Shown piece by piece: positions 9,845 through 29,271 of a DNA stretch of 64,000 bases. Numbering within the stretch: position 1 is the first letter of the stretch; each line of letters starts with the position of its first letter. Below the pieces are notes generated by a model. The model saw only the letters and a program-made list of their open reading frames with translations, did no database searches and was not told the DNA's origin. The stretch covers positions 22,069,001-22,133,000 of the forward strand of contig CM073321.1 of the NCBI GenBank assembly GCA_037043015.1, in the 5' to 3' direction. The stretch comes from Bryum argenteum. Taxonomy: Eukaryota; Streptophyta; Bryopsida; Bryales; Bryaceae. The translations under genes were made by a program, and so were the position numbers.

Positions 9845-10349
9845 TTGGCGCGGTTGGCGGCGGAGGCCGGTGATGTGTACGCGGAGCGTCAGTTGGTGAA
9901 GATTTTTATCTCCAAGCTAGACAAGCGGATGGTTGAGCTTATCAGTCCGCATCTCCTCTTCCGGTACCACGGCAACGCCACTCTGGTGCAAGCCTTTGCC
10001 GGGGTAGAGGCCCTTGATAGAGCATTGGGCGTGAGTGAGGCCACAGACTTGGTGACGTCACTCATGGATGCTCCCAAGCCCAAGAAGCTTGCCACGGTCA
10101 CCGGTAGCTTGGCTGAGGCACAACCTGAAAAGGTTGTGCATTGTTGGGCATGTGGAGAGGCTGGCCTCACCAAGGGTGACCCCAACTGCCCTAAAAAGAA
10201 GGGGGCAAACCCTAGGAAGGCCAAGCCCTAGACCGAGGTGGCCAAGCCTGCAGAGAAGGCTTGGGCAAAGGGAAGAAAACTTTGACATGTTTTCAGTGTG
10301 GCAAGTTTGGCCACAGTAAGGAGAACTGTTTTTCTCTTCAATTGGAGAA
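9845..10349 (+). pseudogene. Gypsy gag, first part, cut by CACTA element
   Basis: The frame from 9845 has gag-like helices (AERQLVKIFISKLDKRM, later LVQAFAGVEALDRALG) and a degenerate first knuckle CWACGEAG. It stops at 10229, and a shift leads to an intact CCHC knuckle CFQCGKFGHSKENC at 10288-10329. The CACTA element inserted 20 bp later, after a Glu codon. Reading across the element through one copy of the GAA duplication keeps the frame and continues at 26122. The frame also appears open for some distance upstream of 9845, so the true start is uncertain. Confidence 0.75.
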
Positions 10350-10570
10350 CACTACTAGAAAAGGGTGTCAATTCTGACCGGGTTTTTTGACTCAAAATCG
10401 ACGTCTGACTGCACCTGACGGCACTACATGTAGTCAGCCAACTAGTCGAGTACCTAGTCAGATCGGACACCCTTTTGGGATGACTACAGGCGTTCCCATA
10501 GGCTCGTTCCCGATGGAGTTTTTGAGACCTCGTTTGGAGGCTGCCCAGGCAGAGTGACGTGGCATAGTCA

Positions 10571-10731
10571 TCTGACTACAGACAGTCATAAGGCCACGTC
10601 AGCAGTGACCATGTGAGGTGACGTGGAAATATGGCCACGTCAGCAGTGACCAAATGAGGTGACATGGAAATATGGCCACGTCAGCAGTGACCATGTGAGG
10701 TGACGTGGACATATGACTGTCTGTAGTCAGA
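10571..10731. repeat. Three 41-bp tandem repeats framed by a 20-bp inverted repeat
   Basis: Copies begin at 10592, 10633 and 10674 with GGCCACGTCAGCAGTGACC and contain CCACGTCA and TGACGTGG, which are G-box-like. They are enclosed by TCTGACTACAGACAGTCATA at 10571-10590 and its exact reverse complement at 10712-10731. The structure lies near the left CACTA end and could fold as a stem. Confidence 0.9.
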
Positions 10732-11660
10732 TTGCCTAGAATTGCGACATGACTACTATTAGTCATAATATGTTGACCGTGTGTGACTAACCATAGTCAC
10801 AAGATAATATGCAACTGACTACATAGAGTCATCTTTGGTACGTATTCATTGAAACGATAGTCATGGGACTGACATACTCTAGTCTCCACTTCGCATGTGA
10901 GGACTACTCATAGTCCACAGGATGACAATCTTTAGTCATCTTCTTGTGAACTATGTTGTGGTTCCACGAATACCTGATGAGGTCTTTGATGACTTCAATG
11001 ACTATAAATAGTCGTGAATGTACATCTCAATAGTCAGTTAGTGAAGTACTGCTAGTCAGTACTACGGGATGCTTAACTAGTAATTTGATTACATCTAGCA
11101 CACAGCACGACTACAGTTAGTCATTTGACCGGTTCCAACTGTAGCTTAAAAGTTATCTTTTCGGAGCGAGAGTTGTGTCGCTGATGACTACGTGTAGACA
11201 GAGAGTTTCTAAATACTCTACACAGGCTCACTACGAATAGTCATGTCTTCCAAAACATCTCTACAAATCCTGACTACGTACAGTCATGGCAATGAAACAA
11301 TGTATGCTTCATGACTACATATAGTTATTCTCTCTCAATACAGTCACTACGAATAGTCATGCATTCAACAACGGCACCAGCGTAATAAATATACCAAAAC
11401 CATTATTTTTGTGGAAATGTTTGTGGACATTGACTAAGCATAGTCATATCTACGAACACGAGACTACGTCATATGACTACAAATTGTCATATGCCTACAT
11501 ATACTGACTATGGTTAGTCATGGTTTGCAAATATTGAGCTAGATAGGATGACTACATGTCGTCACCGTTTCCGATTACAGTACTAGAGAGGATGACTATA
11601 GTCTACTAGTGATAGTCCGGTAAAATGGCTAGATATACGCCTGCGCACCTACGACTACAT
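10732..11660. repeat. Left subterminal TGACTA/TAGTCA repeats of CACTA element
   Basis: The hexamers TGACTA and TAGTCA recur in both orientations every few tens of bases, often as a pair separated by a few bases (TGACTAC...TAGTCAT). Subterminal repeats of this kind are the binding sites of TNPA-type proteins in En/Spm. No gene is seen. Confidence 0.88.
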
Positions 11661-12046
11661 GAGAGCGTCACGCCAGTTCGACAGCCTGGTTGAGGAATTC
11701 CAGAGGCCACAATATGTAGTTGTTTACTGCCTGCCCCATGTTTGTGATTGGAGGGTCGTCCATATTCACCGGTTCACAGAGCAGGTACGCATCGTTGTAG
11801 CTCTTTGTCACCTCCACGGTGGCCATTCCCTCCGGGATAGCCACACCATGGAAATTGGATCCTTCCAGGTTAATAACCTTTCCAAAGCCGACTACTATAG
11901 CCTCTTCCCCTTCACCAACACCCTTGATTTCTACAACAGAGCCTCTGGTAATCCTCTCTCACTGTGATGGAGCTTCCTCTTTTTGCCCGTCTGCCTGCAT
12001 TCCATACAAACGTGATTACATATCATTAGACAAACATGGACGATGA
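11661..12046. other. Non-coding or unassigned CACTA sequence
   Basis: It holds a short open frame without recognisable features and a few TAGTCA motifs near 12050. On the minus strand it lies downstream of the TNPA-like exons, so it may be their 3' untranslated region. Confidence 0.35.
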
Positions 12047-12562
12047 CTAAAGGTAGTCATACCGTCTCAAAACATGACTAGAGACCATCACATTCCAGAG
12101 TCGCACATGACGTTTGACAAATGCAAACCTCATTACCACTGCTGTGCCCTTCTCGTCATGGGGCAGGACTTTCCACATCTCCGCCTCGGTACTGTCTTTC
12201 GCCACAATAGCTGGGTTCTTGAATCTCTTGGGCTTACTCCCCTTCTGTCGTGGCTGTTTCTCGAGGCCAACATCGGACCCCTTCTCTGTCGTCACCACCT
12301 GTTGCGCAGCAGCGGACGCCTTCTCCTTCCTTGTGTAAACTACCTTCTCTTTCTGTGAACGGTTCGTCTTGTGTTCACCCCCGCTAGTTTCGATTAGCTT
12401 TTGGACCTCGGTAGCCCTCTTCCTCTTCTCAGCGGCTGGACGAGTCTTCGGCGGAGAATTGGCAGTGTCGTCTGCTACCACTTCCTTCCCTTTCCTTCCT
12501 TTAGTCTCGAGGACGTCGTCACTGTCTCCAGATTCCTGCTCATATCGGAAGAAAATAACCAC
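12047..12562 (-). CDS. Lys-rich exon of CACTA accessory (TNPA-like) protein
   Basis: The minus-strand frame encodes a very basic, low-complexity protein (KGRKGKEVVADD, PAAEKRKRATEVQ, KQPRQKGSKPKRFKN). The first residues overlap a good splice acceptor (GATATGAGCAG before GAATCTGG, near 12552), and the preceding exon of the neighbouring gene ends at a matching donor at 13011. I therefore read it as a downstream exon and not a separate gene. An acidic stretch on the minus strand around 12730-12850 (HVAEEDTKMVEDIGQDDKDD) could be another exon in between. Stop at 12047. Function is unknown beyond the likely link with DNA binding. Confidence 0.5.
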   Translation of the reverse strand: MVIFFRYEQESGDSDDVLETKGRKGKEVVADDTANSPPKTRPAAEKRKRATEVQKLIETSGGEHKTNRSQKEKVVYTRKEKASAAAQQVVTTEKGSDVGLEKQPRQKGSKPKRFKNPAIVAKDSTEAEMWKVLPHDEKGTAVVMRFAFVKRHVRLWNVMVSSHVLRRYDYL

Positions 12563-12959
12563 ATTGACTGTTGATAATCGAGAGGGGGGAGGGACATGTA
12601 AACTAAGTTACTCATACTACGTCAAGTTGGTGACTGAAAATTGTCATTCAATGTGCGTGTATGACTACGATTAGTTATATCCCAAAAGTTTACCTCAAAG
12701 TTATTTCGTTCCTCCGGTTGTTGTGTACTCAGCATCCCGCGGCGTGGCGTGGCGATGTCGTCGTCCTTGTCGTCCTGACCAATATCTTCTACCATTTTTG
12801 TGTCCTCCTCTGCGACATGCTCCTATTCCCCCACACCGCCCAAGCACACAAACCATGTTAGGGCAATCAGAAAGGAATAACATAAGTTCAACCTTCGTCA
12901 CTTCTTCTTCACAAAATTCAATGGTAATATTAGAGTACTATGACTATGACTACTTAGTG

Positions 12960-14114
12960 CTACAGATGACTACGGATGACTATCCATAATCCTATGATGA
13001 CTGTAGATACCTTCTCCGCGTCCGGTGCTAGAGTAGGCATGGCACTGAGTCCCTGCTGTAGAAGTGGAGGATCTGCAGATGCAACACTTGGAACCTTCAA
13101 ATGTTCTAAGATCAATTTCAGGTTCGCCTCCATACCCTCCATCCGTGTCTCGATGTCCGGGTTACTTTGCTGCGCCACCTTTGACTGCTTCGAAGATGAA
13201 GAGCGATGTCTGCACATGCTTCCCATCTGGTCAGTTAGTTCGGGAGCCAAAGACTCCGAGTACGCCGCCTTCTTCGACGCCGCACGATTTCCCTTCAGCT
13301 TCTCCGCTTGCTTGATCTTTCCCTCTTCAGCAATCATCGTGGAGAGGTTGGCCCAATGCTCACTAGATATGTGCTGTGGCTTGCCCGTCCCCTTAAGCAA
13401 TAATTTCTTCAATTCGTATCGCTTCGTCTTCAACTGAGACCTCAGTACTTGGTGAAAAGACTCCTCCGTGACATACCCAAGACCTCCCTCGTAATCAAAG
13501 GTGGAGTCCACCTTTTTCTTGATGGCAAGTAGCATCCGGGTGCTGTGATGGTTGTAGTTGTCGACTGAGAAGTCCACATGCTGGGAATGGCCTCGCAGGC
13601 AATCCAACCATTTCTTCCGGTGCTGACCGCAAGGCATGCCCTTCATGTCCACCTCGACTAGGTAGCGACGGCCACCATGGTCCTCTCGTTCGCGTGCCTC
13701 CTCCTCACAAGCTCGCTCTGCTGCCCGCCTCTTCTTGCGGTCCTGCGAACTGGCCTTCGGGCGCTTACCGCTGAGGACTGCTTTCTGCTTCGCCTTCAGC
13801 TTCTTGATCTTCTGCGCAATGGCCAGTGCTACCATGTTGGGGTCCTCATCTTCGGAGTCAAAGTTTGATGAAGACCGATTGGATACATTGGATGACGATG
13901 GCGGCGGAAAATGTGGTACAGGCTCCAACCAGTTGTGCTCCTCCCCATCATCATAAATCATTGCTGCCCGACTCATCTTCTTAGTTGCAGCAAGTGGATC
14001 GTCACGGGTTTTCTTCTTGCTGCCGCCCTTGGGGACCTTGAACCTCTTCGGAGATTCTGTATGCCGTTTCCCTTTCACCTGCCAGTGAATGGGGTCCGTG
14101 GACTTCACCTTTTC
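12960..14114 (-). CDS. TNPA-like En/Spm protein, main exon
   Basis: A minus-strand exon of about 385 codons starts after an acceptor (CTACTAG before GAAAAG) at 14114. It is basic at the N-terminus, with a Ser/Pro/acid segment, then a KKLKAKQKAVLSGKRPK region and a coiled-coil-like RRAAERACEEEARERED. Near residue 260 it has SSEHWANLSTMIAEE followed by AEKLKGNRAASKK, the pattern of plant transposase family 24 (Ptta/En/Spm), where a Trp-Leu segment precedes a KNxxNRxK motif. Such proteins bind subterminal repeats. A donor GAGAAG/GTATCT at 13011-13009 suggests the frame is spliced onward, so the stop at 12960 may be read only in unspliced RNA. Confidence 0.68.
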   Translation of the reverse strand, partial: EKVKSTDPIHWQVKGKRHTESPKRFKVPKGGSKKKTRDDPLAATKKMSRAAMIYDDGEEHNWLEPVPHFPPPSSSNVSNRSSSNFDSEDEDPNMVALAIAQKIKKLKAKQKAVLSGKRPKASSQDRKKRRAAERACEEEAREREDHGGRRYLVEVDMKGMPCGQHRKKWLDCLRGHSQHVDFSVDNYNHHSTRMLLAIKKKVDSTFDYEGGLGYVTEESFHQVLRSQLKTKRYELKKLLLKGTGKPQHISSEHWANLSTMIAEEGKIKQAEKLKGNRAASKKAAYSESLAPELTDQMGSMCRHRSSSSKQSKVAQQSNPDIETRMEGMEANLKLILEHLKVPSVASADPPLLQQGLSAMPTLAPDAEKVSTVIIGLWIVIRSHL

Positions 14115-14227
14115 CTAGTAGAGCATGACTAGCATTAGTGAGATTTTGTAAAAGGAATACTACAATTACTCACATTCTAGATTGGGAAAAGTGGCCTTTT
14201 CTGGATGTAGGATACATATGTACGAAC

Positions 14228-14377
14228 CTTCGATTTTCGTTTCGAAGGGGCTGGACCTGCTGTTGCGTCGTCCAGCGCCTGTGTTGGTGCGGATTTCGGG
14301 GGAGGAGGACCCTTGGCGCTGGATTTCTGCATCTCTCCGCAGAAAATCAGTAATGGCGTCTGTGCAACGGCAAACAT
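14228..14377 (-). CDS. Upstream exon of TNPA-like gene
   Basis: The minus-strand frame starts at 14377 and ends at a donor after AAATCGAAG (14228). Joining to 14114 through a 113-bp intron keeps the frame (phase 0). It is rich in Pro, Ala and Lys and ends PAPSKRKSK. The exon at 16148 ends with the similar PAPSKPSSK before an equivalent donor, which suggests exon duplication. The start could also be an internal acceptor (TTGCACAG near 14360). Confidence 0.5.
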
Positions 14378-14405
14378 TCTGCCATGGCCATAGAAGGCTT
14401 CGCAA

Positions 14406-14990
14406 TGGTTGCCACCCCAGCTGCGGATGCGACTGTCTAAAGTTCTAGAGATAGTTCGTATACTACCTCTTAAGACATATAATGTGTTAAATGCCTATTA
14501 CTAGTCAGATGCTTCGTAGAGATGACTAAATGTAGTAATTCTACGGGAATCTATGACTGAACATAGTCATATGTGTAGCCTCACAGGACTGATTCGAGTA
14601 CAAAATGGTTAGTATATGACTTTACTTAGTCATATAGAGAGAGTGATGACTAGAGGTAGTCCAATATTGAAAAGAAATTGCTCTCAATAGTCACGTTGGC
14701 AGGGTAGACAACTAAAGATAAAACAAGTCTAATGTGACTATACAATATCAGCTCGTAAAGAGACGTTAGTAAAGCCTTGTCACAGAGTTATTAAAAACAA
14801 CAAGCACGTATACGACAAGGCATGAGGGTATGTGATTGGAAACACGGATTGTGCTGAAGTCAGAATAGGCAGGAAATCTGAGTAGTGATGGTCGGGTGTT
14901 AGGTCTAAAGTTAGGTTTTTGCAATATCGACGTTAGGACTAGAAATTGTCATATGCGCGTTGTACATGACTGACGTAGTCACGAATTAAA
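14406..14990. other. Non-coding CACTA spacer with TAGTCA motifs
   Basis: No gene is seen. The stretch is dotted with TGACTA and TAGTCA motifs in both orientations and separates two minus-strand genes. Confidence 0.6.
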
Positions 14991-15965
14991 CTATTTCAAG
15001 ACATCCGTGAGAGTGTTATCCTCCAACACAAGCCGACATTCCTCCTGCAGTTGAGCAGCCTTTTTCTGGATAGCAACGGACACTTCTAGCATTTCATGGA
15101 GCATGAACTGAATCTTAAAAATATTTATGTCTTTCTTTACTGCCCTCATTTCCTCATCTACATTTGGCCCCATGTTACGTACCTTAGGTTTTGAGGGCGC
15201 TCTCTTTGCTGCTTGGACTGACTCTTTCTCGTCCACGTAGGAGTCAGATGACGCCTCGTCCTCCGAGAAGAACTCTGCCTCCGTCTCCACTTCTTCAAGC
15301 TCGGATTCGGACGCGTCCTTCTTGGACTCCCGATTCCTTCGAGCAGTACTTGTCGGCTGCTTCGATGTGATGCGACTAGACCTCCTCTGTGGACTTACAG
15401 CCTCCCTGGACTCTTGAAAAATGTCCGTTAATACTTTAGCCATCTCATGCAAGGCTACACCAGTGATTTGTGGCATTCTACCAATTCCTTGAAAAACCTC
15501 TTCTACGCAATTGTCAGGTAAATTTGCTACCATCCTCATTATCTTTTCTACCGAGGCACTATATTCAATGGTCATTGTTCCCGGAATTAGGCAAATATTA
15601 CTATTTACGTACGGGGAAGTAGTCTTCGGAGGAGATGTGGTGATTTCGGCAGCCGTAGTGAGGTTCTGAATACCCAACGACTTCAAAACGCGCTGGTTGA
15701 ACTCCACATTCTTATCGCGCGCGAGCTCGTACGGGTTTGGAGAGGGCGCCTTCTCCTTCTTTGTCTTCCCTCGCGCCTTCCTACGCTTTGCTGCAGAGTC
15801 GTTGTCGCTATCGGACAGGGACAGAATCTCCTCCTCCAGTGGCAGCGGAGTTTTTGAGCGGGAGGGCCTGACTGATAGCAGCACGCCAGGGACGACCTCC
15901 TTCTCCTTCGTTGCCGACCGCGTGGCTGGACGCCGTATCGGGTGCGTTTCGAGCGCCTTCTTCTT
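14991..15965 (-). CDS. CACTA accessory protein, second exon
   Basis: A minus-strand exon of 325 codons begins after an acceptor (CATTTTACAG) and ends at TAG 14991-14993. It has a basic N-terminus (KKKALETHPIRRPATRSATK), a short acidic patch (LSLSDSDNDSAAKRRKARGK), a PNPYELARDKNVEFNQRVLK stretch of the type seen in plant transposon accessory proteins, a structured middle, an acidic SELEEVETEAEFFSEDEASSD segment and a C-terminal helix. Splicing from 16148 keeps phase 0. I do not assign a family. Confidence 0.55.
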   Translation of the reverse strand, partial: KKKALETHPIRRPATRSATKEKEVVPGVLLSVRPSRSKTPLPLEEEILSLSDSDNDSAAKRRKARGKTKKEKAPSPNPYELARDKNVEFNQRVLKSLGIQNLTTAAEITTSPPKTTSPYVNSNICLIPGTMTIEYSASVEKIMRMVANLPDNCVEEVFQGIGRMPQITGVALHEMAKVLTDIFQESREAVSPQRRSSRITSKQPTSTARRNRESKKDASESELEEVETEAEFFSEDEASSDSYVDEKESVQAAKRAPSKPKVRNMGPNVDEEMRAVKKDINIFKIQFMLHEMLEVSVAIQKKAAQLQEECRLVLEDNTLTDVLK

Positions 15966-16147
15966 CTGTAAAATGAAAAAATTAGTCACATTCTAGATTG
16001 GGATGACTAACATTAGTCATACAAATACAAGCACATGGCTATGACGGGAAAGTACTTCGTGATCATTCAAACCCTAGGAGTACTTGAACTGTTCGGCGGG
16101 CAAAATTGTGGGCGGCCGGCGATGCAGGTTACACAGGTTACACGAAC

Positions 16148-16723
16148 CTTTGAACTAGGCTTCGAAGGGGCTGGATGCGGTGCTGCTTCCTCGGCGCCGC
16201 TTGCTTCCTTCTCCGCGCCGCTAGATTCCTCCTCCGACCCGCTTGCTTCCTTCTCCGGGCTTACTGCCTTCTCATTCGACGTGCCCTTGCCTTCCTCCTC
16301 CGCCGCCTCTCCGTCGGATGCCTCCTCTTTGGACGCCTCCTCCTCCGACGCTACCTTCTCTTCGGACCCCTCCGCTGAAGTAGCGTTTTCTGACGTTGCG
16401 TTCTCTTCGGACTCCTCTCCCGACTGCTCCTTCGCCTCGTCCTCCTCATCCGATCCTTCCTCCGAGGCTGAGTTCTCCGATCCTTCCTCACTGGCTAACT
16501 TCTCCGATACCCCTTCCTCCGAGCTATCGTCCGATCGTTCCTCCGCCTCGCTCTCCTTGTCCGACCCTTCTACCGATGCTGCCACCTCCGCGCCCTCTGC
16601 CACCTCCTTCCCCGTGTTGTTCCTCTTGTCACTCTTATCTTCCTCACTATCAGTACTCTCAATCTCTCGATCAGGTAGTGAAGGAAGGAGAGCAGACTTC
16701 CTAGGCGCCATAGCTCCACACAA
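16148..16723 (-). CDS. CACTA accessory protein, highly acidic first exon
   Basis: The minus-strand frame starts at 16723, or more likely at the second Met (APRKSALLPSLPDRE) at 16711. Most of it is a Glu/Ser/Asp-rich tract made of near-repeats such as SEEGS and SEEEAS. It ends PAPSKPSSK at a donor (CAAAG/GTTCGTG). A 182-bp intron (15966-16147) that contains TAGTCA motifs leads in phase to the exon at 15965, giving about 516 residues in all. The start lies upstream of the non-coding region shared with the transposase gene, so transcription is divergent. Confidence 0.55.
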
Positions 16724-18100
16724 GAGCTCTACAAATTACAGCAATTGAACAAGGGAGAATAGAAAACTGATCGGAGGCCATTTTGTCAACTTCGGGTTCT
16801 TCAAGGTATGTGGGTGGAGAGCTATCATGAATTTCCAACTTGATTGAGAGAGAGTGGCCTCGGTGATGCACAGGAGTGGAGGGGTTGTGCAATTGAGTGA
16901 GATATCATTTCGGACATGAAATTCAAAATTTGGCGGCTGGGTGCAATAAATGATCACCGCCGCCGTTTACTAGTCAGTCAATTTCTACTCATGACTAGTC
17001 CTAGTCATATCTTTGTCCAGATTTTTTCAATTGCTTTTTCTATTACTAAATATTTTATGTCATCATCTCCTGGACAGCCATGTGACCGCTTATTTGCATC
17101 AAATCGAACAGGTGGAGTCCTTCACCTACGAGCAATTAAAAGACATTCTTCACTACTAGATTCAATCTTCAAGTGTCCGTGCTTTCTCAGGTAAACGCAT
17201 AATTGGTCCTTTTAGAATTTTGTCCGACCATTCATACCCATCTGCGTTTTTTTGTGATTGTATCAGATATGAATTTTCTTTCTCATTCGTGATAGAGGTC
17301 ATAAGCAAAACTGAACACATGGTTGGTTTTTTTAGTCATGCTCTTTCAGGACAAGACTAATATTATCATAGAATATACGTAACTTCGTAATCCATTTCGA
17401 TGTCCCAGAAATTTTGATAGCTTTGGATTTCTATACTGTTCACAATGTGAGAGGCCGAATACTTCTGCGAGTCTGATGCTGGAATGAAGTACAGGTAGAA
17501 GGTCAAACTCTGGCGCACGTTTCTATATTGTAGACCAATAGGTTTGTTGTTATTCAAATGCAATTTTCTTTGTACATTCATGGTACAATTTTATTATATC
17601 TTAAAACACATGCGAGAATTTTTGGATTTAATAATTTCTAATATGATTGCATGTGAAACTGAATTGCATAAGTTGCTATGATCAAGAGTGGCCTCGGTGA
17701 TGCACAGTCTGCGGCCTCGGTGATGCAAAGAAGCAAAGTTTCTTACTTACAGCTGATTCGCCCATATGTATAGCTTTCACCCATATGAATATCACGCATT
17801 AACCTCCTCTAACGAACCGGATATATGACTTACTATAGTCGTCACGTTTTTGTGCAAGACTATGGGTAGTCGATAATGACTACGAATGGTCCTATGCTAC
17901 ACGGATACGTCGACTATAGTCGAAGGATGCGAGACATTACTAAGTATAGTCACATGTTACTTGCAGATGACAGCCGCGGACTTAGATGCTTCGATGACAT
18001 TCTTCCACTTCTTATGTTTTGTGTTCAGATTCTTTCACTACAATTACTGAGGTACGAAAAATATGTATGCATGCAGTATAGGCGGAGATCGCAAGTTAAT
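16724..18100. promoter_or_regulatory. Divergent promoter region of CACTA element
   Basis: This 1.4-kb stretch lies between the minus-strand accessory gene and the plus-strand transposase gene. I find no good gene in it. A segment GAGTGGCCTCGGTGATGCACA occurs near 16852 and again near 17690, the second followed by a third partial copy (GCGGCCTCGGTGATGCA). TAGTCA motifs are dense at 16970-17010 and 17825-17955. Promoter function is inferred from position only. Confidence 0.5.
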
Positions 18101-18298
18101 ATGGATCCAGCATCGCGTGAAGATCTTCTGCACTTGCAGTTGTGGGACATCGAAGAGAGAGAAGCGGACCTACGTGGTCTAGAAAGTTACCGTTGCCCAT
18201 GTAAGAAATGCATGGGTGTAAGAGTGGTTTTTAGAAAAACCATCCGAAGACACCTACGGAAGTACAAGCGCGATCCAGTTTTTAAGACATCCATTCTG
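18101..18298 (+). CDS. CACTA transposase exon 1, Transpos_assoc-like zinc region
   Basis: Starting at ATG 18101, the frame reads MDPASREDLLHLQLWDI and then YRCPCKKCMG, followed about 15 residues later by IRRHLRKYKRD. CPCxxC followed by a V/I-xx-HL helix is the pattern of the transposase-associated domain at the N-terminus of plant TNP2 proteins, thought to bind DNA through zinc. A donor (ATTCTG/GTACGG) at 18298 and an acceptor (CGTGTAG) before 18391 give a 92-bp intron and leave the frame in phase 0. The frame also extends upstream of 18101, so the first exon may be longer. Confidence 0.7.
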
Positions 18299-18390
18299 GT
18301 ACGGTACTCATGACTGTTCTCAATCGATGTTGGTGTCAAATGTGTGGAGATCCATAATGATTGCATTACTCTTTTGATACGTTCGTGTAG

Positions 18391-18987
18391 GAAATACAAA
18401 GACCTGTTGTATTGGCCGCAGCAATTGCTGCATTAAAGTTCATAATTTCGAATCCTCTCCCGCTTGCAACGAGCGGACAAGGTACTTCGTCTCCCAAGAA
18501 CAAAGAGACTCGTCATATTGGTGGCACAGATGGAGCCACTGTGCAATTGAGCACAGGCCCCATCCCAAAGCTCCACGTCTTCACATTCTGGAAGAGGAAG
18601 TGGCAGGTGAGAGTGTCAACACATCCGCACATGGGATGGGGCCTGTATGCTATGGAGCCAGCAAAATTAGGCGAAGAGTTGTTGCCTTTTGTTGGGAATG
18701 TTTTCTCAGAGGCCGAGGTCCTTCAAAAGTGTGAGCAGGACCCGCGATTTCTGAAATACGTAATACGCATGAAGAAAAACACGTACCTCGATGGAGATGT
18801 GTTGAAAGGAAATGTAGCAGGATTTATAAACAGTTCAATTGGACGAGAGCATATACAGAATGTGATTTGGGAATATGTATCCTTGCCTACCCCATGGAAT
18901 CCGTATACTTGGGGGTATATCATGACTGTAGCAGCGCGTGATATTGAAGTGGGGGAGGAACTTTTCACATCTTACCCTGTAAACTGA
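18391..18987 (+). CDS. SET-domain exon within CACTA transposase gene
   Basis: The frame has a linker (EIQRPVVLAAAIAALK to about residue 60) and then a SET fold: HPHMGWGLYAMEPAKLGEEL (first strands), PFVGNVFSEAE, YVIRMKKNTYLDGDVLKGN, then AGFINSSIGREHIQNVIWEY in place of the usual RFINHSCxPN, and finally AARDIEVGEELFTSYP, the conserved GEEL-x-x-x-Y end. SET domains transfer methyl groups to lysines of histones or other proteins using S-adenosylmethionine. Here NH is NS, so activity is uncertain. The exon ends either at TGA 18985-18987 or at a donor CCT/GTAAAC (18978) that keeps phase 0 with the TNP2 exon at 19470. No stop interrupts it. Confidence 0.82.
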   Translation, partial: EIQRPVVLAAAIAALKFIISNPLPLATSGQGTSSPKNKETRHIGGTDGATVQLSTGPIPKLHVFTFWKRKWQVRVSTHPHMGWGLYAMEPAKLGEELLPFVGNVFSEAEVLQKCEQDPRFLKYVIRMKKNTYLDGDVLKGNVAGFINSSIGREHIQNVIWEYVSLPTPWNPYTWGYIMTVAARDIEVGEELFTSYPVN

Positions 18988-19469
18988 TATGTCTTTCAGA
19001 GGTTGTTAATGAATAGGGTATCAGCACAGGAATTTGTACTCTTATACATCGTTTGATGACTCCTGATATTGATAACACCTGAGTGAGTGAATGCACTCAT
19101 ATGTTTTGTACATCTGACCAGTCTCACAATGGTCATGTTTGTGATCTAAGTGTGCAACCACCACTTTTCTCGTCGATGACTACTTGTAGTCCTCCTTTTC
19201 ATACATATGACTAAATTTAGTCATACTGCCTTAGACATCTGGACCGTTTGCCGACTAGGAATATTCAGTTGTTTATCATGTATGGCGTGGTTATGTTCTG
19301 CCCAAACCGATAAAATATAAGTCACGTTCGTAAGTGATGGGGAACAATTCCTCTACTCGAATCCAAGGCTTTAACCATTACATCTGTTCCGAACAGCAGT
19401 AGATCTTTTTTACATCGATATATGTATGCCTTACAAACTCATTCGAGTGTCTAAGTTTTTATTGTGCAG

Positions 19470-20384
19470 TCCAGTGCTACAGGCGAGAGTGACGATGATT
19501 GTGAAGACCTTCACGAACCAAACGAAACTCACGAGGGCAACACAGCAATGCCAACTGCTTCAGAACATTTCGACGTTGCCAGGATGATTACGGAGTGCCT
19601 TGGCAGATAAGATTGTGTCCCTCCACCTGATGACGACTCTGCGGATGAGGACGAAGTTGACGTTGCTGTTGATGACGACAACCTCCCTGACATATACCCA
19701 GATGACTTCAATCACATATCAAGTGTTTCACTTTACGAAGGATGTGAGACGAAGCTATTGGTGGCGGTGCTCCTAATTTTCAATTGCTTCACATTACACG
19801 GTGTATCAAACACGTGTGCAGATGAACTATTGAACATTATCAGCGAACTTCTCCCAAAGGGCAACAAACTTCCCAAATCGCACTTGAAAGGGAATAAACT
19901 CATACGGACACTAGGGTTGAATTACAAGCTAATCCATGCTTGCCGAAACTGTTGTTGTTTGTTCCGAGGGGACTTGGCCGAGGCGTTGACGTGCCCACTA
20001 TGTGGACAACAGCGATACGCATCGGAGAATAGTGGGCGGCCGGTGAAGATTTTGAGGCACTTCCCACTTATACCCCGACTCATGCGAATGTATCGATGTA
20101 AGGAGATAGCGAGTTGAACAAGTGGCACACAACACGGAAAGACATACATGGCAGTATGGAGTGTGTACCGGACTCAAAAGCTTGGAAACACATCAACGCT
20201 TTATATCCGGAATTCGCAGCTGACGAGAGGAATGTACGATTAGCTCTGGCCACAGATGGAGTGAATCCTTTTTCAAACCAGTCACTCAGCCACTCAACGT
20301 GGCCAGTGATACTATTAAATTACAACCTACCTCCTTGGCTAGTAACGAAACGGTTCTTTCTAATGCTAGCTCTCCTCATCCCAG
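19470..20384 (+). pseudogene. CACTA transposase TNP2 exon, first part
   Basis: After an acceptor (TTATTGTGCAG) the frame reads an acidic lead, then the TNP2 signature: SLYEGCETKLLVAVLLIFNC, LPKGNKLPKSHLKGNKLI, YKLIHACRNCCCLFRG and CPLCGQQRY. A shift near 20113 leads to SKAWKHINALYPEFAADE, LALATDGVNPF and YNLPPWLVTKRFFLMLALLIPG, again typical. The stop TAA at 19608-19610 and the shift break the frame. The exon ends at CCCAG/GTAAAT. TNP2 is the catalytic protein that cuts CACTA ends. Confidence 0.9.
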
Positions 20385-20787
20385 GTAAATAGTTGTCATG
20401 TCACTCCGACCACGCTGTTATTCACACTTCTGCAGTTAGACGTATGGTGAAGTCAATTGATTTACATTAGTCGTACTCTTGAAACATATGCCTACGATTA
20501 GTCATATCTAGAATGACAGTGACTAATAGTTGGTCATACCCTGAAACTATAGTGACGACAAAATGTCATTTCCTGAAAGACCATGAGTGAAAGTAGTTAT
20601 ACTCTGATTTAAGTTCCCCAACATTAGTTATATCTAGAAATAACAAGACCAGCCGCAATAGGATTATAACACATCAGGACAAATGTTACACTTGTTCTTA
20701 AAGCAGTGGACAAACATTAGCAATTTTCTTAAAGCCGCAGGTTTTCTCTTTCACTAAAGTTTATGATGCTTGCTTTCCTCATTCCAG
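20385..20787 (+). other. Intron of TNP2 gene filled with TAGTCA motifs
   Basis: The intron is bounded by GT at 20385 and AG at 20786-20787 (CATTCCAG before GGAAGG). Joining restores LIPGKESV in frame. Several degenerate TAGTCA and TGACTA motifs lie inside, like the subterminal regions. Confidence 0.7.
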
Positions 20788-21306
20788 GGAAGGAGAGTGT
20801 GACGTCATCGAATATAGATGTGTATCTGGCCCCTCTTATCGAAGAGCTGCAGCAACTTTGGGAGGGTGTAAATGCCGTGGATGTCTCCGCCGACAGTCAG
20901 AACACCAATTTCACACTCAGAGCAATGTTGATGTGGTGCATCCACGATTACCCAGCATACGGTCTTGTTTCCGGGCAAGTAACAAAGGGGTACAAAGGCT
21001 GTCTTGAATGCGGCCCTAACGTTAGTACTCGTTGATCAGCTTCACTGGGAAAGAATGTTTACCTCGGACATCGGAGGTACTTGCAGAGGAATCATCCGTA
21101 TCGGCGACTGAGAAGAGCATTTGATGGCACGGAGGAAATAAGAGCACCCCCAAGGTCTCTGAATGGACGAGATATTGTGCGCCATGCTAAAGCTAGGCAG
21201 AGGTGGCTAGCAGCCAGTGATGAAAATAGAGAAGGAGGCGAGAGTGATCCAAAGCACCGGCGGAGTGAAGAGGCTATCGATTCTTTCTGATCTTCCATAT
21301 TGGCAA
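20788..21306 (+). pseudogene. TNP2 exon, middle part
   Basis: It reads NIDVYLAPLIEELQQLWEGV, then LRAMLMWCIHDYPAYGLVSG and GCLECGPN, followed by NVYLGHRRYLQRNHPYRR, all landmarks of TNP2. TGA 21033-21035 interrupts in frame, as expected from a CGA codon. A shift near 21270 brings in ILSDLPYWQ, which ends exactly at a donor CAA/GTAAGC (21306). This matches the usual LPYW end before the next conserved block. Confidence 0.88.
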
Positions 21307-21603
21307 GTAAGCATGCTTACGCTGTAAACCACGTTTCTGTTGTTACTCATGATATGAAAATGTTTTTTCGTAGGGTAGTCAGATTTTGAGAACACAACGA
21401 CTACCTGTTGTCATGTACTGATAGATCGTGACTAACAGTAGTCATACATTGAGACCATAGGACTAACAGCAGTCATATGCGGAGAACGCATGAGTAGGAC
21501 TCCTCATTCTCAGCGAAAGCAGGACTAACAGTGGTCTTATTTTGGAACATGCATGTTAGTAATATTAGTTATGTTCTGACGTAGGATGTGTTCTTCATCT
21601 CAG

Positions 21604-22440
21604 ACTCTCATAATCAGGCATGTGCTGGATCCCATGCACTGCGAAAAGAATCTCTGCGAAAACATCATGAGGACAATATGGGGATTGAAAGACACACTCA
21701 AAGTCCGTCTAGACATGAAAGAGGCCAATATACGCCCCGAACTGCACCCTCAACACGTCGGGAGTGATACCATTGTACTACCGGCTGCTCCTTACGTTCT
21801 TACGAAGGTGGAAAAGGTGACATTCATCAACACTATCCGGAACTTAAAGACTCCCAGCCATTACGTAGGGCAGTTATCGAAGAGGATCACCTCTGATGGA
21901 GACCTTCGTGGGCTTAAGTCACATGACTACCACATCATGATGCAACAGGTCCTCCCTTTGTGTCTCCGGACATTACTAACAAAAGACGTTCGGGCAGCCA
22001 TCATTCGGATATGCAGGGTGTTTGTGCGACTATGTGAGAAGTCTGTGGATCCGTCAACAATGTCCGATTTGGTGGAGGAAACAGCTGTGACCATGTGCAT
22101 GATGGAAAAAGTATTTCCACCGTCATTTTTCGATGTCATGTCACATCTTCCAATCCACCTAGTGCAACAATTAGCCATTTGTGGCCCGGTGCATACACGT
22201 TGGATGTACCCCGTGGAACGGTACCTCAAAACCTTAAAGGGATATGTACGGCAACGAGCGAAACCGGAGGGCCCGATGGCACGAGGGTATATCATGGAGG
22301 AGACGCTCGGATTCTGTACGGAGTACATGAAGAATTGGAGCATGACGACACGGCGTGTGTGGGACGACAAAGAGGAGCCTACTATGAATGATGAAGTTCT
22401 AGAGGGGAACGAGACGGCGCTTACTCTTTTTTAATCTGCA
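21604..22440 (+). pseudogene. TNP2 exon with DUF4218-like region
   Basis: After a 297-bp intron (21307-21603, acceptor CATCTCAG) the frame reads TLIIRHVLDPMHCEKNLCEN, a hallmark of TNP2, then the DUF4218 block: LKSHDYHIMMQQVLPLCLR, FPPSFFDVMSHLPIHLVQQL, GPVHTRWMYPVERYLKTLKG and YIMEETLGFCTEYM. It ends at a stop at 22432-22434 in a run of T, probably a slippage frameshift. The following bases continue coding-like sequence for about 130 bp. Confidence 0.88.
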
Positions 22441-22559
22441 AAGAATGGATCCATGATTTTGTGATGAACAACGCTGAAATCATCGTAGACTACAGAGAGT
22501 ATGCACCAAATCCTCTCTTGGAACTGCATGGAACTTGCGCTCAGAGTACGGAAACAATT

Positions 22560-22806
22560 CTGTACAGGTTATCGTGCAAAAGATGACTACGCGTAGTCAT
22601 TACTTGAAGGGGAACATCCATGCGTAGTCGTATTAGCCCCTAGTTTTATTTTGGAATGTGGTCATGCGTCGGCTAAGGAGTATGTCTGCACATAGTCATT
22701 CTTCCGCTGCGGAATGACTACGCATAGTCATAGGCCATCTGTAAGGGCCTACAAATAGTCATAGGCCATATGAAAGGGCCTACAAATAGTGGTCATTGTA
22801 AAAACA
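22560..22806 (+). other. Likely intron with TAGTCA motifs
   Basis: This non-coding stretch between two TNP2 coding blocks has many TAGTCA and TGACTA motifs and a near-duplicate ATAGGCCAT(C/A)TG(T/A)AAGGGCCTACAAATAGT. Exact splice sites were not fixed. Confidence 0.55.
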
Positions 22807-22832
22807 GGCTAATGTGAAATAACGTAGTCGAA

Positions 22833-23689
22833 GTGCTGGCTTGCTACAGGCGTTACGCATGTGAAATGAAGCGACGAGAGGACGCCCGCAACATATTTCG
22901 TCGACATCAAAGGAAGAAACGTGTAGATTACCCCACCGACATACAGCACCAGCAATTGAATCAATGGTTTCACGATGCTGTATCCAACGATATGGCGACG
23001 GGGACAGATGTCTCCGCGGACATCCAAGCGTTGCTGACCCCCCCTTCAGTCCAGGCAAAGGGATACAAGTCGATGTACGCATATGGAAATCATATCCGTG
23101 TACGTGGAATAGAAGCTGATATGGCCACATGTGACAGCGCAGTAGCAGCTACGTTCCTCCAATCTTGTCGCGCTAGTTCGCATGACCGCAATCTGAAGAC
23201 AACAAATCTGGAGTACGTGGGGTGGGTGGACGAAATTCTCAGCGTGGACTACGGGAAATTTGAAGTTGTGGTGTTGTACTGTACGTGGGCACAAGCAAAT
23301 AGAAGGGGAGCTCGTGCTACAATGAAAACCGACGAATATGGATTCACATTGTTCAGATTTGATCGGTTGGTTCCATACTCAGCGGACTCCTTCGCATTTC
23401 CCCTTCACGTACAACAAGTATTTTTCTCATGATGAGAAGAAAAAAAAGTGGATGGAAGGTCGTTTTACGCCGACAGCCACGTGGTGCAAGAGTGGAGTCA
23501 AGAGCTGCGGAAAGACCGGAATTGCAGAGTCTACGGTTAGGTAGAGACGAAGAGTATGAGGGCCTGAGACCTCTCTACATACTTCCGGAAGCAGTATACA
23601 AACTCATGATCACGGCAATCGCTAGAAGATTGACCACAGAGGAAGCCCAACAGAACTTGCTGGATTCCGAGGAGGATGCAGATGAGTGA
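22833..23689 (+). pseudogene. TNP2 C-terminal exon (DUF4216-like)
   Basis: The frame 22833-23432 has the C-terminal region of plant CACTA transposases: WFHDAVSN, then GTDVSADIQALLTPPS, followed by SCRASSHDRNLKTTNLEYVG and YCTWAQANRRGARATMKTDE. Near 23430 a run of A leads into another frame (23429-23689) ending ARRLTTEEAQQNLLDSEEDADE. The gene end is therefore near 23689. The run of eight A residues (GAAAAAAAAG) is a plausible slippage frameshift. Confidence 0.8.
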
Positions 23690-23869
23690 TAGGAAGCGTT
23701 GTCGATATATACAATCGTGTAGTACGCGTAGTGTGAGAGATAGTGTGGACGAGTACCTGATGAGAATCAGCTACATGTTGATTTTTGTCGTATGAACGAC
23801 TTACTCCTAATTATAGTCATATTTGTTGAACCAGTGAGTGCATAAAAAAACCCTTGGGTTGACTAAATT

Positions 23870-25760
23870 ATGAGTACCGTAGTCATAAGACAGGTAGGAA
23901 TTTAGTGTAGACAAAAAATTAGTTTTATTAGCGGAGATGAAAAAAATTTTAAAAACAAAAAAACAACTAACTGCCTTTTGACTAAGTACTGACTACGACA
24001 ATCATAAGGCACGTAGGAATTTAGTGTAGACAAGAAATTAGTCTTATTAGCGGAGATGTAGAAAAAATAAAAAAAAATAAAAAAAACTAATTGCCCTTTG
24101 ACTAAGTTCTGACTACAAGAGTCGTAAGGCAGGTAGGAATTTAGTGTAGACAAGAAATTAGTCTTAATAGCGGAGATGAAAAAAATTTTAAAAAAAAAAC
24201 TAACTGCCTTTTGACTAAGTTCTGACTACGACAGTCATAAGGCAGGTAGGAATTTAGTGTAGACAAGAATTAGTCTTATTAGCAAAGATGGAAAAAAAAA
24301 AAAAAAAAAAAAAAAAAATAACTGCCTTTTGACTAAGTTCGACTACGACAACCATAAAAGCGGTAGGAAATTAGTGTAGACAAGAAATTAGTCTTATTAG
24401 CGAAGATGAAAAAAATTTTAATAAAAACACAACTAACTGCCTTTTGACTAAGTTCTGACTACGACAGTCATAAGGCAGGTAGGAATTTAGTGTAGACAAG
24501 AAATTAGCCTTATTAGCGGAGATGAAAAAATTAAAATAAAAAAAAACTCGCTTTTGACTAAGTTCGACTACGACGGTCATAAGGCGGTAGGAAATTAGTG
24601 TAGACAAGAAATTAGTCTTATTAGCGAAGATGAAAAAATTTTTAATAAAAACACAAACTAATCGCTTTTGACTAAGTTCGACTACGACGATCGTAAGGCG
24701 TAGGAATTTAGTGTAGACAAGAAATTAGCCTTATTAGCGGAGATGAAAAAAATTAAAATAAAAAAAACTAACTGCCTTTTGACTAAGTTCTGACTACGAC
24801 AGTCATAAGGCACGTAGGAATTTAGTGTAGACAAGAAATTAGCCTTATTAGCGGAGATGTAGAAAAAATAAAAAAAAATAAAAAAAACTAATTGCCCTTT
24901 GACTAAGTTCTGACTACAAGAGTCGTAAGGCAGGTAGGAATTTAGTGTAGACAAGAAATTAGTCTTAATAGCGGAGATGAAAAAAATTTTAAAAAAAAAA
25001 CTAACTGCCTTTTGACTAAGTTCGACTACGATATCATAAAGGTAGTAGGAATTTAGTGTAGACAAGAATTAGTCTTATTAGCAAAGATGGAAAAAAAAAA
25101 AAAAAAAAATTTAAAAAAATAACTGCCTTTTGACTAAGTTCTGACTACGACAGTCATAAGGCAGGTAGGAAATTAGTGTAGACAAGAAATTAGTCTTATT
25201 AGCGAAGATGAAAAAATTTTTAATAAAAACACAACTAACTGCCTTTTGACTAAGTTCTGACTACGACAGTCATAAGGCAGGTAGGAATTTAGTGTAGACA
25301 AGAAATTAGCCTTATTAGCGGAGATGAAAAAAATTAAAATAAAAAAAACTAACTGCCTTTTGACTAAGTTCTGACTACGACAGTCATAAGGCACGTAGGA
25401 ATTTAGTGTAGACAAGAAATTAGTCTTATGAGTGGTCAAAAACAGAATAAAAAAAAAAAAAACTGCCTTTGACTAAATTCTGACTACAGCAGTCATAAGG
25501 CAGGTGGGAATTTAGTGTAGACACTAAATTAGTCTTATGGGTGGTCGAAACCACTTATTATAAAACTACTCTGATGACTAAGTTATGACTACGGTAGTCA
25601 TATGGGAGGTGTGAAATAGTGTACATAGTAAATTAGTATATAGAATGGTAGAAAATGAAATAAAACATACGGATGTGGTGACTAAGGGATGACTACAGTA
25701 GTCATAAGACAGGTAGGAATTTAGTGTAATCACGAAATTAGTCTTATGAGTGGTCGGAAC
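23870..25760. repeat. Minisatellite, about 16 copies of a 110-120-bp unit
   Basis: Each unit contains GTAGGAATTTAGTGTAGACA, AATTAGTCTTATTAGCGGAG, an A-rich run and CTGCCTTTTGACTAAGT followed by a TGACTACGACAGTCATAAG motif. Starts are spaced 108-120 bp apart. The A run varies most. The last copies (from about 25500) diverge. The unit includes the TGACTA motif of the subterminal repeats, so the array seems grown from them. Apparent short minus-strand proteins here are only translated repeats. Confidence 0.93.
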
Positions 25761-26121
25761 CAAAATAAAAAAACCATTGTGGTAGTCAGATGACTACAAG
25801 AAAATCATGCATAGTCATATTGCTGCCCGAAACCGTAGTCAAGACAATGACTACTCTAGTCATATGCCTGCCCGGACGTAAATAACCACGTTCTCGGCGT
25901 TCCCCAACCGTAAAATCATCGAGGTGCCTAAAAATTCTGACTCCGAATAGTCGTATGACTACAAACATGACTAAAATATGACTAAAATATGACTAAAATT
26001 TTTACTCCCCCCTTAGCTGACTAAGTTTTTCCAATCTGAATACGCATTTGACTAGCCAGAGTCAGAATTGACACCATAGTCATTCGCGACTAGTCAGAAT
26101 TGACACCCTTTTCTATTAGTG
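25761..26121. repeat. Right subterminal repeats and terminal inverted repeat of CACTA element
   Basis: It has dense TGACTA and TAGTCA motifs, including three tandem TGACTAAAATA units at about 25966-25997, and ends with the inverted copy of the left terminal repeat. The last base is G 26121, followed by the target duplication GAA. Confidence 0.92.
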
Positions 26122-26863
26122 GAAGCGCCCAAGCTCTTCAGCTGCTAGATCGGATGTGGTAAAGACTCTTCAGGCCGAAATTGCGGAGTTGAAGAAGCAG
26201 ATGAGCACCATGGCTTCTTTAGGGCAAGTGCCAGACATACAGCCTCCAGTAAGGGGCGAGGGCTCTTCCTCAACCTTGGATCGCTACTTGTATGGCGCCT
26301 CAGGGGAAGTTGTGGCAGTTGTGGCTACTCGTACTCAGACTATCGCACAGACAATGGCACCTTCTCCGCTTGTGTCGAGTAGTGGTAGACGTCCGCGCCA
26401 TGCGGGTTTGCCAGACCACATTGGCCAGTCCCGACTACCGCTATCGTTCAGTATTGCGGAGGCGGCTACATCTGGTGTCGTTCCCACTCCGAGCTTAGTC
26501 CCACCGGTTTCTTCCACTCATGGAGATGCCACACACACATTGGTTTATAAGGCGTTGCAGTTGCTGGTGTTTGCCGGTGTGAACTTTCTGACACCGGATT
26601 TTCATCCATCCAATGTGTTCCACTTGGCGGGTAGTATGTTGGAGGACAAGGTTTCCATGCCATCGTTGGAGGTGTCACAGGCAGTGACGACTCCATCTAC
26701 AATGGAGGATTTGGTGACGATGCGGGCCAAGTTGGCGGCGGAGGCTATTTCTACGTTTGAGGCCAATGCCACTTTCTCACCTACGGAGCAATCCTCTAGG
26801 GATCATTCATTGATCTCAGGGGTGCCTTATTTGTATGACGTTTTGGCCCGGTCAGCTCGAGAG
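26122..26863 (+). pseudogene. Gypsy gag, second part, between CACTA and hAT insertions
   Basis: The frame from 26123 continues the zinc knuckle protein across the CACTA element. It begins basic, then KTLQAEIAELKKQMSTMAS (coiled-coil-like), followed by a Pro/Ser-rich linker, and ends at the hAT insertion after a Glu codon. Its length and composition fit the linker between gag and protease of a gypsy polyprotein. The protease resumes at 47214 in another frame. No stop occurs within this piece. Confidence 0.7.
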
Positions 26864-26946: not shown

Positions 26947-27059
26947 GTAAATCGGAATTACTATGCATGTAGTAAATTTTTTAACCGTCAGATCGTATTG
27001 AAAGTCGCATCGTAGCCGTTCAAATAGTGTTGTGTGTGTAGGTGATTACCATTGGATTG

Positions 27060-27616
27060 AATCGGGCGGCCCAGGACCGTCCGATTGGCCCTGGCCGACC
27101 GACAGGTCGACGGCGTCGGATCGGTCGCAGCCGACGAATCGGTCGCTTGATCGGTCGCAGGCCGTCCGATCGGTCGCGGTTTCAATCGGCCGTCAGATGG
27201 GGCGCGGTCGGCGTCGGCCGTCCGATTGGTCGCGGTCGGCGTCGGCCGTCCGATCGGTCGCGGTCTCCGTCGGCCGTCCGATCGGTCGCGGTCTCCGTGG
27301 GCCGTCCCATCGGTCGCGACCGGCCGGTCGGCACCGGCCGTCTGATCGACGGGCGGGTCGGCCGCGCGGTGATCGGTCGGGTCGGCCGACGGATCGGTCG
27401 GTCGGGCGACGACGGTCGGGGCCGAACGCCGCCGTCCGACGGTTGCGCGACCGGCCGGTCGGCTTCGGCCGTCCGATCGGTCGGCCGATTGGTCGGGTCG
27501 GCCGCGGCTGATCGGTCGGGCCGGTCGGCGCCGGCCGTCAGATCGGTCGGGCCGCTCGGCCATCCGCCGTCCAATTTGGGTCGCCGGTCGGCCATGCGAC
27601 CGCGGCCTACATAAGG
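27060..27616. promoter_or_regulatory. GC-rich CGGTCGG array upstream of kinase-like gene
   Basis: About 550 bp are made almost only of variants of CGGTCGG, GGCCGTCCGATCGGTCGC and their complements. The array ends in TACATAAGGCC (27608) and a pyrimidine-rich leader (CTCCTCACTTC). Similar arrays precede the RING and transposase genes of the same element. Long open frames on both strands here are a by-product of the low stop-codon content. Confidence 0.65.
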
Positions 27617-27678
27617 CCGACCGGTCCTCCACTCTCCTCACTTCTTTCCTTCCTTTTCAGGGTGCGGAGTGGGTATAG

Positions 27679-29271
27679 ATTGGAAATTTTTTTAATTTTC
27701 ATCCACTGGCTCCTTATCCTGGGGAGGAAAGAAGTCTTTCCGTTTGTAAGGGGGGAGATTTTGCTTTTACTTTTCACAAAGATGCCCAAACATGGGGCTG
27801 GAGGCAGAGGGGGAATCGAGGCCGGAGACCAAGGCCTGTTAGACATCTTGAGAAGTGGGAGCACCCATTCAATAAGTGCAAGAACTTTCTTCGGGAGAAT
27901 GTAATCGTGCGATTTTATGAGGCTAACAGTCTTTCACGTTTGTTCAGCAAATACGTGAGATACAAAGAGGAAGCTCAGGCCAAATTCAAGGACGACATGA
28001 TGGACCTCATGATGGAAGCGCTCCAAGATCCGGTGTGGAGACCGGAGACCGATAAGCGTGGCTTTACGGATTGGATGGAGGATAGATTAATTGATGCTCT
28101 CTGGAACGCTGTCGACATATTGAAGAGGTATGAGAGAACGAATCGAGCGGGTGATGAGGAGTTTAGGGATGTGGTATTGAGGGCAGCGGCTTTTCAAGAA
28201 GCGATGAGGCCGGATTCCAATAATAAAAACCGGGTCGGCTCCATAGGATGGTGGCACACGGATCAAGGAAGGTTAATGGAGCTGGGTCGCATGAATAATT
28301 TGATAGTAATTCCTGTCACGGCCCGTATCATCGAGCTTGAGAAGAGGACTCTAAGGGGAGGATACGGCACAATTTCCAAAGTTCACATAAGAGGGGTTGT
28401 GGCCATTGAAGAGTACTGGGAATTTGCTGCAAAGACTCCCATCCATGCTGTGACACGACCAGACTTGGCCAAGGTGGAGCATCAGAATGAGGCGTTTGCT
28501 GTGAGGATACAACATCCAGGTGTTATTCGTTTTATAGCCATTCATGCAAATAAATTCCAAGGCTATACGTATTGGTGGAATGGCAGCACGATTCGATCGA
28601 TGTTGGCCCTTGATGCAAGCTATGGAGATAATGCTAATGGAGAGATCGGACTCACACCTCATTCCGATGATGAGCGTATTCGAGCTTGGCAGTTGGTCCG
28701 GTTTCGCAAAAAACGAACAAAGCTTGCTTGGGCTTTAGTGCATATCATGTGTGAAGTCCACCGGTTGAACTACCTCCACAACGATGTGTCTCCAGACAAC
28801 ATACTTCTTCACTTCCCTCAAGATGAATCACGAGTGTATATTGGAGTATGCGATTGGGGGCTAACCACGAGCATGGATGATAAAATGAGGTCCTTTTATA
28901 CGTTCACAAAACCCCAAGAGAGAATTGATATTCTACAAGCACGATATTGGGTAGATCCTCGGGTGGCGTACTTGTACAAACGGAGTGATGACATTCACGT
29001 TATTCCCCTTCTTGATTGCGCTTCGGAGGAGTTTGCTACGGCACGAATAGCACAACAAATCCTCAAGAAGAGCATGTCGAAGGCCTACGAGAACTGCCAA
29101 AGTACATCGGGGCCTGACCGGTGGTCCAATTAAGATTTGGCAAATGCTTTTGACCAATACTTGGAGATGGTCGCTGATGCAAAGTATACGCTGACCCACG
29201 TTGTCAACCGCTTCATGGAATCATTCCATTGGCCGGTGCCAAATGATCATTATCGCACCAAGTATGATTAG
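27679..29271 (+). pseudogene. Protein-kinase-like gene carried by hAT element
   Basis: An open frame runs from 27679 to TAA 29131-29133 and continues in frame to TAG 29269-29271 (DLANAFDQYLEMVADAKY). It has an N-terminal helical region (about 150 residues), then a kinase fold: LRGGYGTISKVHIRG (glycine loop), EFAAKTP (possible Ala-x-Lys), VEHQNEAFAVRIQHPGVIRF (helix C region), LNYLHNDVSPDNILLHF (catalytic Asp and Asn) and GVCDWGL (metal-binding Asp). The catalytic residues are kept. No ATG is seen in the first 318 bases of the frame, so an upstream exon is likely. The stop at 29131 fits a CAA-to-TAA change. Substrate unknown. Confidence 0.75.

Follow-up and report, generated by a model that had tools for sequence, protein, structure and literature searches.

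A SET-domain exon in intron 1 of a CACTA transposase gene of Bryum argenteum: a probable alternative last exon carried by one transposon clade

Transposons are usually viewed as targets of histone methyltransferases. In primates, a SET domain and a mariner transposase are joined in SETMAR (Metnase), one domesticated, fused host gene. SET histone-methyltransferase genes have also been reported on the HarbingerS and MuDR transposons of oomycetes (Kojima and Jurka 2014, via PMC12730594), and the available text of the citing article states that SET-bearing transposons occur in several lineages, so that an EnSpm entry in Repbase is possible, and that fungal EnSpm and other DNA transposons carry TET/JBP genes (PMC12730594). 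According to the accessible part of a study of En/Spm, alternative splicing of a single unit yields two products in that element, with the tnpD open reading frame (ORF) in the intron-1 region (PMC2613891). In VANDAL elements, which are described as MuDR-type (PMC12730594), a short motif is scattered and tandemly amplified in noncoding DNA, introns included, and is bound by VANC anti-silencing proteins, as set out in the portion of the report available to us (PMC5735166). Here we describe a 64,000-nucleotide stretch of Bryum argenteum (assembly GCA_037043015.1, contig CM073321.1, positions 22,069,001 to 22,133,000; hereafter the window, in whose own numbering positions are given), which contains a complete CACTA (En/Spm-type) element with a SET-domain exon inside its transposase gene. 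The SET exon almost certainly belongs to one mobile CACTA clade, and it probably serves as an alternative last exon, rather than as part of a fusion or as a separate gene, judging from the splice signals and stop codons of several families.

The element is 15,772 bp long (10350-26121), and the zinc, SET and tnp2 exons all lie within it. Its terminal inverted repeats begin with CACTA, CACTACTAGAAAAGGGTGTCAATTCTGAC on the left (10350-10378, plus strand) and ...TTTTCTATTAGTG on the right (26093-26121, minus strand), and match in inverted orientation at 28 of 29 positions. A 3-bp target-site duplication, GAA, adjoins them at 10347-10349, where the flank reads GGAGAA before CACTA, and at 26122-26124; it was scored in the window copy, the sole copy with both ends in hand. 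With its tnp2 transposase and subterminal repeated motifs, the element thus has the recognized features of the CACTA superfamily. The gene runs on the plus strand and opens with a zinc exon (18101-18298), which starts with ATG, carries a CPCxxC motif and matches Transpos_assoc in part (E = 1.4e-4), short of the curated cut-off. A predicted 92-nt phase-0 intron (18299-18390, GTACGG...GTGTAG) separates it from the SET exon (18391-18987), which is open over 198 amino acids, carries a catalytic-type tyrosine at residue 195 and closes with a TGA at 18985-18987. The remainder of transposase intron 1 (18988-19469) is predicted to end in TTGTGCAG. The transposase exons follow at 19470-20384 (T0-T2, the N-terminal part of tnp2, with a phase-0 acceptor), 20788-21303 (T3-T4, tnp2, approximate end), 21613-22434 (T5, approximate ends) and 22836-23690 (T6, approximate ends). 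In frames downstream of SET, Pfam detects Transposase_21/tnp2 (PF02992; E = 4e-32 and 8e-27) and DUF4218 in T5 (4e-39), with a weak DUF4216 match in T6 (0.005, below cut-off).

A preliminary description of this DNA had placed a SET exon in phase within a CACTA tnp2 gene, on predicted phase-0 splice sites, and had noted that the SET exon was intact beside broken transposase exons. The Pfam matches and the complete, bounded element bear out the first point. All four splice dinucleotides are present and fit phase 0 (GT 18299-18300, AG 18389-18390, GT 18979-18980 and AG 19468-19469), and in the window copy the transposase frame is indeed disrupted by a stop and small indels, with a stop and a small indel in T0-T2, while the SET frame is unbroken.

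The profile search suggested for the SET translation gave a match to PF00856 (SET) with E = 5.7e-10 (40 bits, the cut-off being 22.4), and SET also scored above the cut-off in four divergent families. A SET fold is predicted as well. In SET proteins, the GxG motif belongs to the cofactor site and a C-terminal tyrosine is of catalytic type, while NHxC is a motif of classical SET histone methyltransferases. An alignment that took 33 of 47 protein matches conserves the GxG-type motif (G82 in 32/34, W83 in 34/34 and G84 in 34/34 sequences) and the catalytic-type tyrosine (Y195 in 32/33). The SET domain is under purifying selection, and 27 of the 92 SET protein matches in the genome align free of stops over at least 180 residues. 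We think it fairly likely that the SET product is an active methyltransferase. The 47 matches (P0001-P0047) are metagenome proteins from several public sources, 39-89% identical to the exon; because of these relatives, the SET family is probably not confined to this genome.

Counting the window itself, the genome holds at least 24 DNA matches to the SET exon; 23 of them, some partial, have 91-100% identity, and the remaining one has 78%. Its 92 protein matches, many 46-65% identical, merge into 73 loci. At 61 of these loci, a zinc exon precedes SET by no more than 1 kb on the same strand (zinc matches from the best 150 of 213 candidates, 77 of 100 being used and weak ones omitted), and at 51 a same-strand tnp2 T2 exon follows within 6 kb (T2 matches from the best 150 of 389), 770-1231 bp from SET in 47 of the 51. 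All DNA matches except the window (23 of the at least 24) were taken with 9.5 kb, and nine divergent loci were read, L031 being in both sets. These nine (L031-L039, four further families, with SET 46-65% identical) all have the order zinc, SET, tnp2, so the search for further copies with this order, which the preliminary description had proposed, succeeded in every copy read. Of the nine, L038 has a frameshift near the SET end, and L037 and L039 lack an in-frame exon start. The many DNA and protein matches and the constant order together indicate that the position of SET within CACTA is not due to chance.

The distribution of the exon follows the transposase. Among the best 150 of 389 T2 places, SET was nearby at 44 of the 51 that are at least 66% identical to the window T2, at 4 of the 16 that are 60-65% identical, and at 2 of the 83 below 60%, so SET looks characteristic of one CACTA clade. 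Distances between SET sequences correlate with those between transposases (r = 0.90 over 21 elements, 0 of 2000 permutations), although relatedness among the elements makes this test generous. Five deletion derivatives (L023-L026 and L028) retain most of the SET exon but neither the zinc exon nor more than a small remnant of tnp2. The junction 19454/22970 is common to four of them, the fifth (L028) has 19454/23268, and the DNA past their right ends differs between copies, which suggests that SET-bearing copies moved as units. The SET of these derivatives is probably not expressed as a zinc-SET protein.

The borders of the SET exon indicate how it could be expressed. An in-frame TAG overlapping the acceptor AG directly precedes the exon in the window, L031-L036 and L038 (eight sequences), so the SET frame would be entered by splicing or from an internal start. 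In the window, L032 and L034 families, the first methionine does not come before residue 81, inside the domain, and an independent SET gene with its own ATG was rejected for this reason. Together with the upstream TAG, this means that the window SET needs the zinc exon. The preliminary description had offered, as its alternative, a separate SET gene ending at its own TGA; the use of the stop fits better than a fusion, but the independence of the gene does not hold. A GT directly follows the zinc match in the window and in 9/9 divergent copies, and in copies whose SET start is intact the zinc-SET intron measures 71-124 nt. In SET-less L040, L041 and L042, the zinc exon, a predicted intron of 84-94 nt and the tnp2 exon follow one another, phase 0 to phase 0. 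In the SET-bearing window, L031, L032, L033 and L037, a phase-0 tnp2 acceptor is found 874-1171 nt past the zinc donor, and L039 has such an acceptor as well. The zinc donor, the SET and tnp2 acceptors and their phases are predicted to be mutually compatible in the window, L031, L032 and L033. Given the SET-less relatives and the retained acceptors, SET appears to sit in an ancestral intron 1, from which both zinc-SET and zinc-tnp2 could be joined in frame.

The preliminary description had instead considered a single protein in which zinc, SET and tnp2 are fused, the CACTA equivalent of SETMAR, joined across 18298-18391 and 18978-19470 with the GT at 18979-18980, in codon 197, as the second donor. 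Every junction of such a protein would be phase 0, and a phase-0 GT lies near the SET end in four of five families (window, L032, L034 and L036), where 4-5 of 8 positions agree with the donor consensus; a fusion could exist alongside as a minor isoform. As the principal product it is probably wrong, and we consider it unlikely. The SET frame reaches its own stop soon after the catalytic-type tyrosine in all five families read, with the tails YPVN, YDLNSAPI, YHVNQ, YSLQQGNIDKRVNVMKD and YRVGK. L031, the nearest divergent family (78% DNA identity), has no GT at the proposed donor, L034 has its GTs further downstream than codon 197, and the best-matching GT of L036 has phase 2 and overlaps with its stop codon. 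In the 33 sequences compared here, 32 of them metagenome relatives and the other the window, position 197 holds Val (16 sequences), Leu (15), Ile (one) or Gly (one), Leu removing the donor GT; position 198 holds Asn in 31. Residues 197-198 thus evolve as protein while the GT is not kept. A slightly more doubtful proposal makes zinc-SET the element's own gene and starts the transposase at an internal ATG, so that the zinc exon is not shared. Several families do have a methionine in a VxRMIxECLGRY-like stretch of the tnp2 exon, but the zinc-tnp2 junction of the SET-less relatives and the phase-0 tnp2 acceptors kept in six SET-bearing sequences argue against it. Least probable by a clear distance is that SET is a passive passenger, a captured gene fragment without function, as in Pack-TE-like elements. 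Host gene pieces are known in CACTA elements (PMC8616336, available part), SET is missing in L040 and L041, and 6 of 15 full-exon close copies are broken; set against this are the purifying selection on the SET domain, the conserved catalytic-type residues in 34 aligned sequences, the 27 long stop-free matches, and exon ends that are alike in five old families.

We return to the alternative last exon, which has to be weighed against several observations that pull the other way. Because NHxC reads NSS in the SET exon (N147 in 34/34, the next two residues each Ser in 32/34), methyltransferase activity is not assured. The selection test suggested in the preliminary description bore out constraint on the SET domain, but residues 1-52 of the exon are weakly constrained, with 2 synonymous and 12 nonsynonymous differences between the window and L016, a ratio of nonsynonymous to synonymous substitution rates (dN/dS) of 2.0. 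Pooled over 21 close copies, decayed ones included, dN/dS is 0.57. In L031 and L036, an in-frame methionine near SET residue 13 would allow a start within the exon. A search for a joined zinc-SET protein, scored over residues 1-130, yielded no match at E<=0.001 among 363 candidates, in a database of unspliced ORFs that might miss such a protein. In a tree of 24 sequences rooted on SET-less L042, the SET-less pair L040/L041 nests within the SET-bearing clade (support 0.70 and 0.89). The preliminary description had named copies without SET as grounds for giving up its reading, and such copies exist; SET loss in this pair is likely from the tree, and because SET-less elements nest in the clade, SET seems dispensable for mobility.

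The TAGTCA motif provides a candidate target. The 15.8-kb element contains 117 occurrences of TAGTCA/TGACTA, compared with 19 in the other 48.2 kb of the window. Of TAGTCATA, the window has 27 exact copies, against 1.84 expected for it from shuffling, and every one falls within the element. The motif is absent from the zinc, SET, T0-T2, T3-T4 and T6 exons and occurs once in T5; the zinc-SET intron has none, and the four later introns have 2-6 each; the remainder of intron 1 contains the motif. A small tandem repeat in intron DNA (22724-22790) carries it. Subterminal density reaches 19.3 per kb on the right and 12.9 per kb on the left, and the right side includes a tandem array (23859-25538) in which a 120-bp unit with TGACTA/TAGTCA is repeated about 14.6 times. 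In L031, the motif core ranks first among the 7-mers of noncoding DNA, and L032 has it too. Less favorably, the minus-strand ORF block described below contains 16 motifs (4.2 per kb), and the motif is weaker in L034 (3.1 per kb), in L037, a close relative of L032 (2.1), and in L036 (1.5, outside the top 7-mers).

Combining these lines, we hypothesize that a CACTA clade took up a SET methyltransferase exon in transposase intron 1 and kept it through diversification. Splicing of zinc to SET, ending at the SET stop, would give a zinc-SET protein of about 264 amino acids, and skipping of SET, with zinc spliced to tnp2, would give the transposase. The common zinc module would send zinc-SET to the transposase's DNA, plausibly to TAGTCA motifs in noncoding DNA, where it would methylate histones or another protein at the element. 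Taken whole, this explanation, in which a captured SET serves as alternative last exon, shares the zinc module and targets its own element, is in our judgement about twice as likely to be right as wrong. Expression, alternative splicing, enzyme activity, the DNA target and the direction of effect are all things we infer. The motif distribution suggests a self-targeted chromatin modifier, with the zinc module as the presumed reader of TAGTCA. The most likely purpose would be to keep element chromatin open (anti-silencing), the other option being self-restraint, and we put anti-silencing forward as a direction of effect at somewhat worse than even chances. A little more tentative is the specific picture in which alternative splicing of the transposase gene supplies a histone methyltransferase guided by the motif, with zinc reading TAGTCA in the introns and ends of the element and the SET mark countering silencing.

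No host donor gene of SET was found with two SET-family queries, which gave 92 and 94 matches. A zinc or T2 match lies near 67 of the 73 SET loci, and the other six are the five deletion derivatives and a short fragment (C1:32214782). No source was confirmed in viral contigs (0 of 53 pattern stretches) or in prokaryotic GTDB contigs (0 of 86). In a PF00856 search of the genome, the best 150 of 330 candidates were scored, many being other SETs, and the one read, L043, is not close. Among these 150, a second, larger multi-copy SET family occupies about 70 places on C1-C11, each of about 354 bp, mostly covering profile positions 1-102 at roughly 50-69 bits, with most frames open. Its example L043 (G000:C3:24115050-24116040) has a weak Pre-SET match and a VARFVNHRC motif. 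One of 71 places of this family lies within 15 kb of any of 96 listed tnp2 T2 places.

Elsewhere in the element, a block of minus-strand ORFs (12960-14114, 14991-15992 and 16067-16735) may represent a second gene. The frames, of 384, 333 and 222 amino acids, have no Pfam match above cut-off and are partly acidic or of low complexity, and the two nearer SET (14991-16735) fall in a stretch for which close copies, L009 and L012 among them, show matches of about 96%. Beyond the right end, 26988-29133 comprises a GC-rich repetitive stretch (about 27.0-27.6 kb) with several frames open on both strands, followed by a 484-amino-acid frame (27679-29133) with motifs that we take to be kinase-like.

SET capture by other DNA transposons is already known. 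The preliminary description knew of no CACTA case, and we found none among the open-access papers listed, outside of which lie Repbase entries and subscription papers; the available parts of PMC8616336, PMC12477816 and PMC4158355 contain no SET-bearing CACTA element. The present data indicate that a SET domain has been part of a transposon clade for as long as it took to diverge to about 46% identity, and its placement would let a chromatin writer and a transposase use one common DNA-reading module. If active, zinc-SET would be a natural, small, sequence-guided methyltransferase that allows a direct test of transposon anti-silencing via histone marks, and if the motif-guided reading is true, a plant-type DNA transposon would encode a self-targeted chromatin writer.

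Each of the known systems resembles this element in part. With En/Spm it would share two products from one unit, but a SET protein would here take the place of a TNPA-type DNA-binding protein as the second product, and the splicing is predicted. Like the oomycete HarbingerS and MuDR elements, it is a DNA transposon with a SET histone-methyltransferase-type gene; those belong to other transposase superfamilies and hosts and are known to us from one citing sentence. The fungal EnSpm elements with TET/JBP genes offer a likeness in CACTA-superfamily capture of a chromatin or DNA-methylation enzyme, as far as the available source text goes, and differ in the enzyme, host kingdom and gene layout. 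The Arabidopsis VANDAL elements show a comparable motif layout in noncoding DNA, which the window fits and the other families fit unevenly. VANC is not known as a SET protein, VANDAL elements are MuDR-type, and binding of the motif here is a prediction. SETMAR likewise sets a SET domain beside transposase sequence, but there the transposase is of the mariner family, whereas here it is tnp2/CACTA, multi-copy, mobile and most likely unfused.
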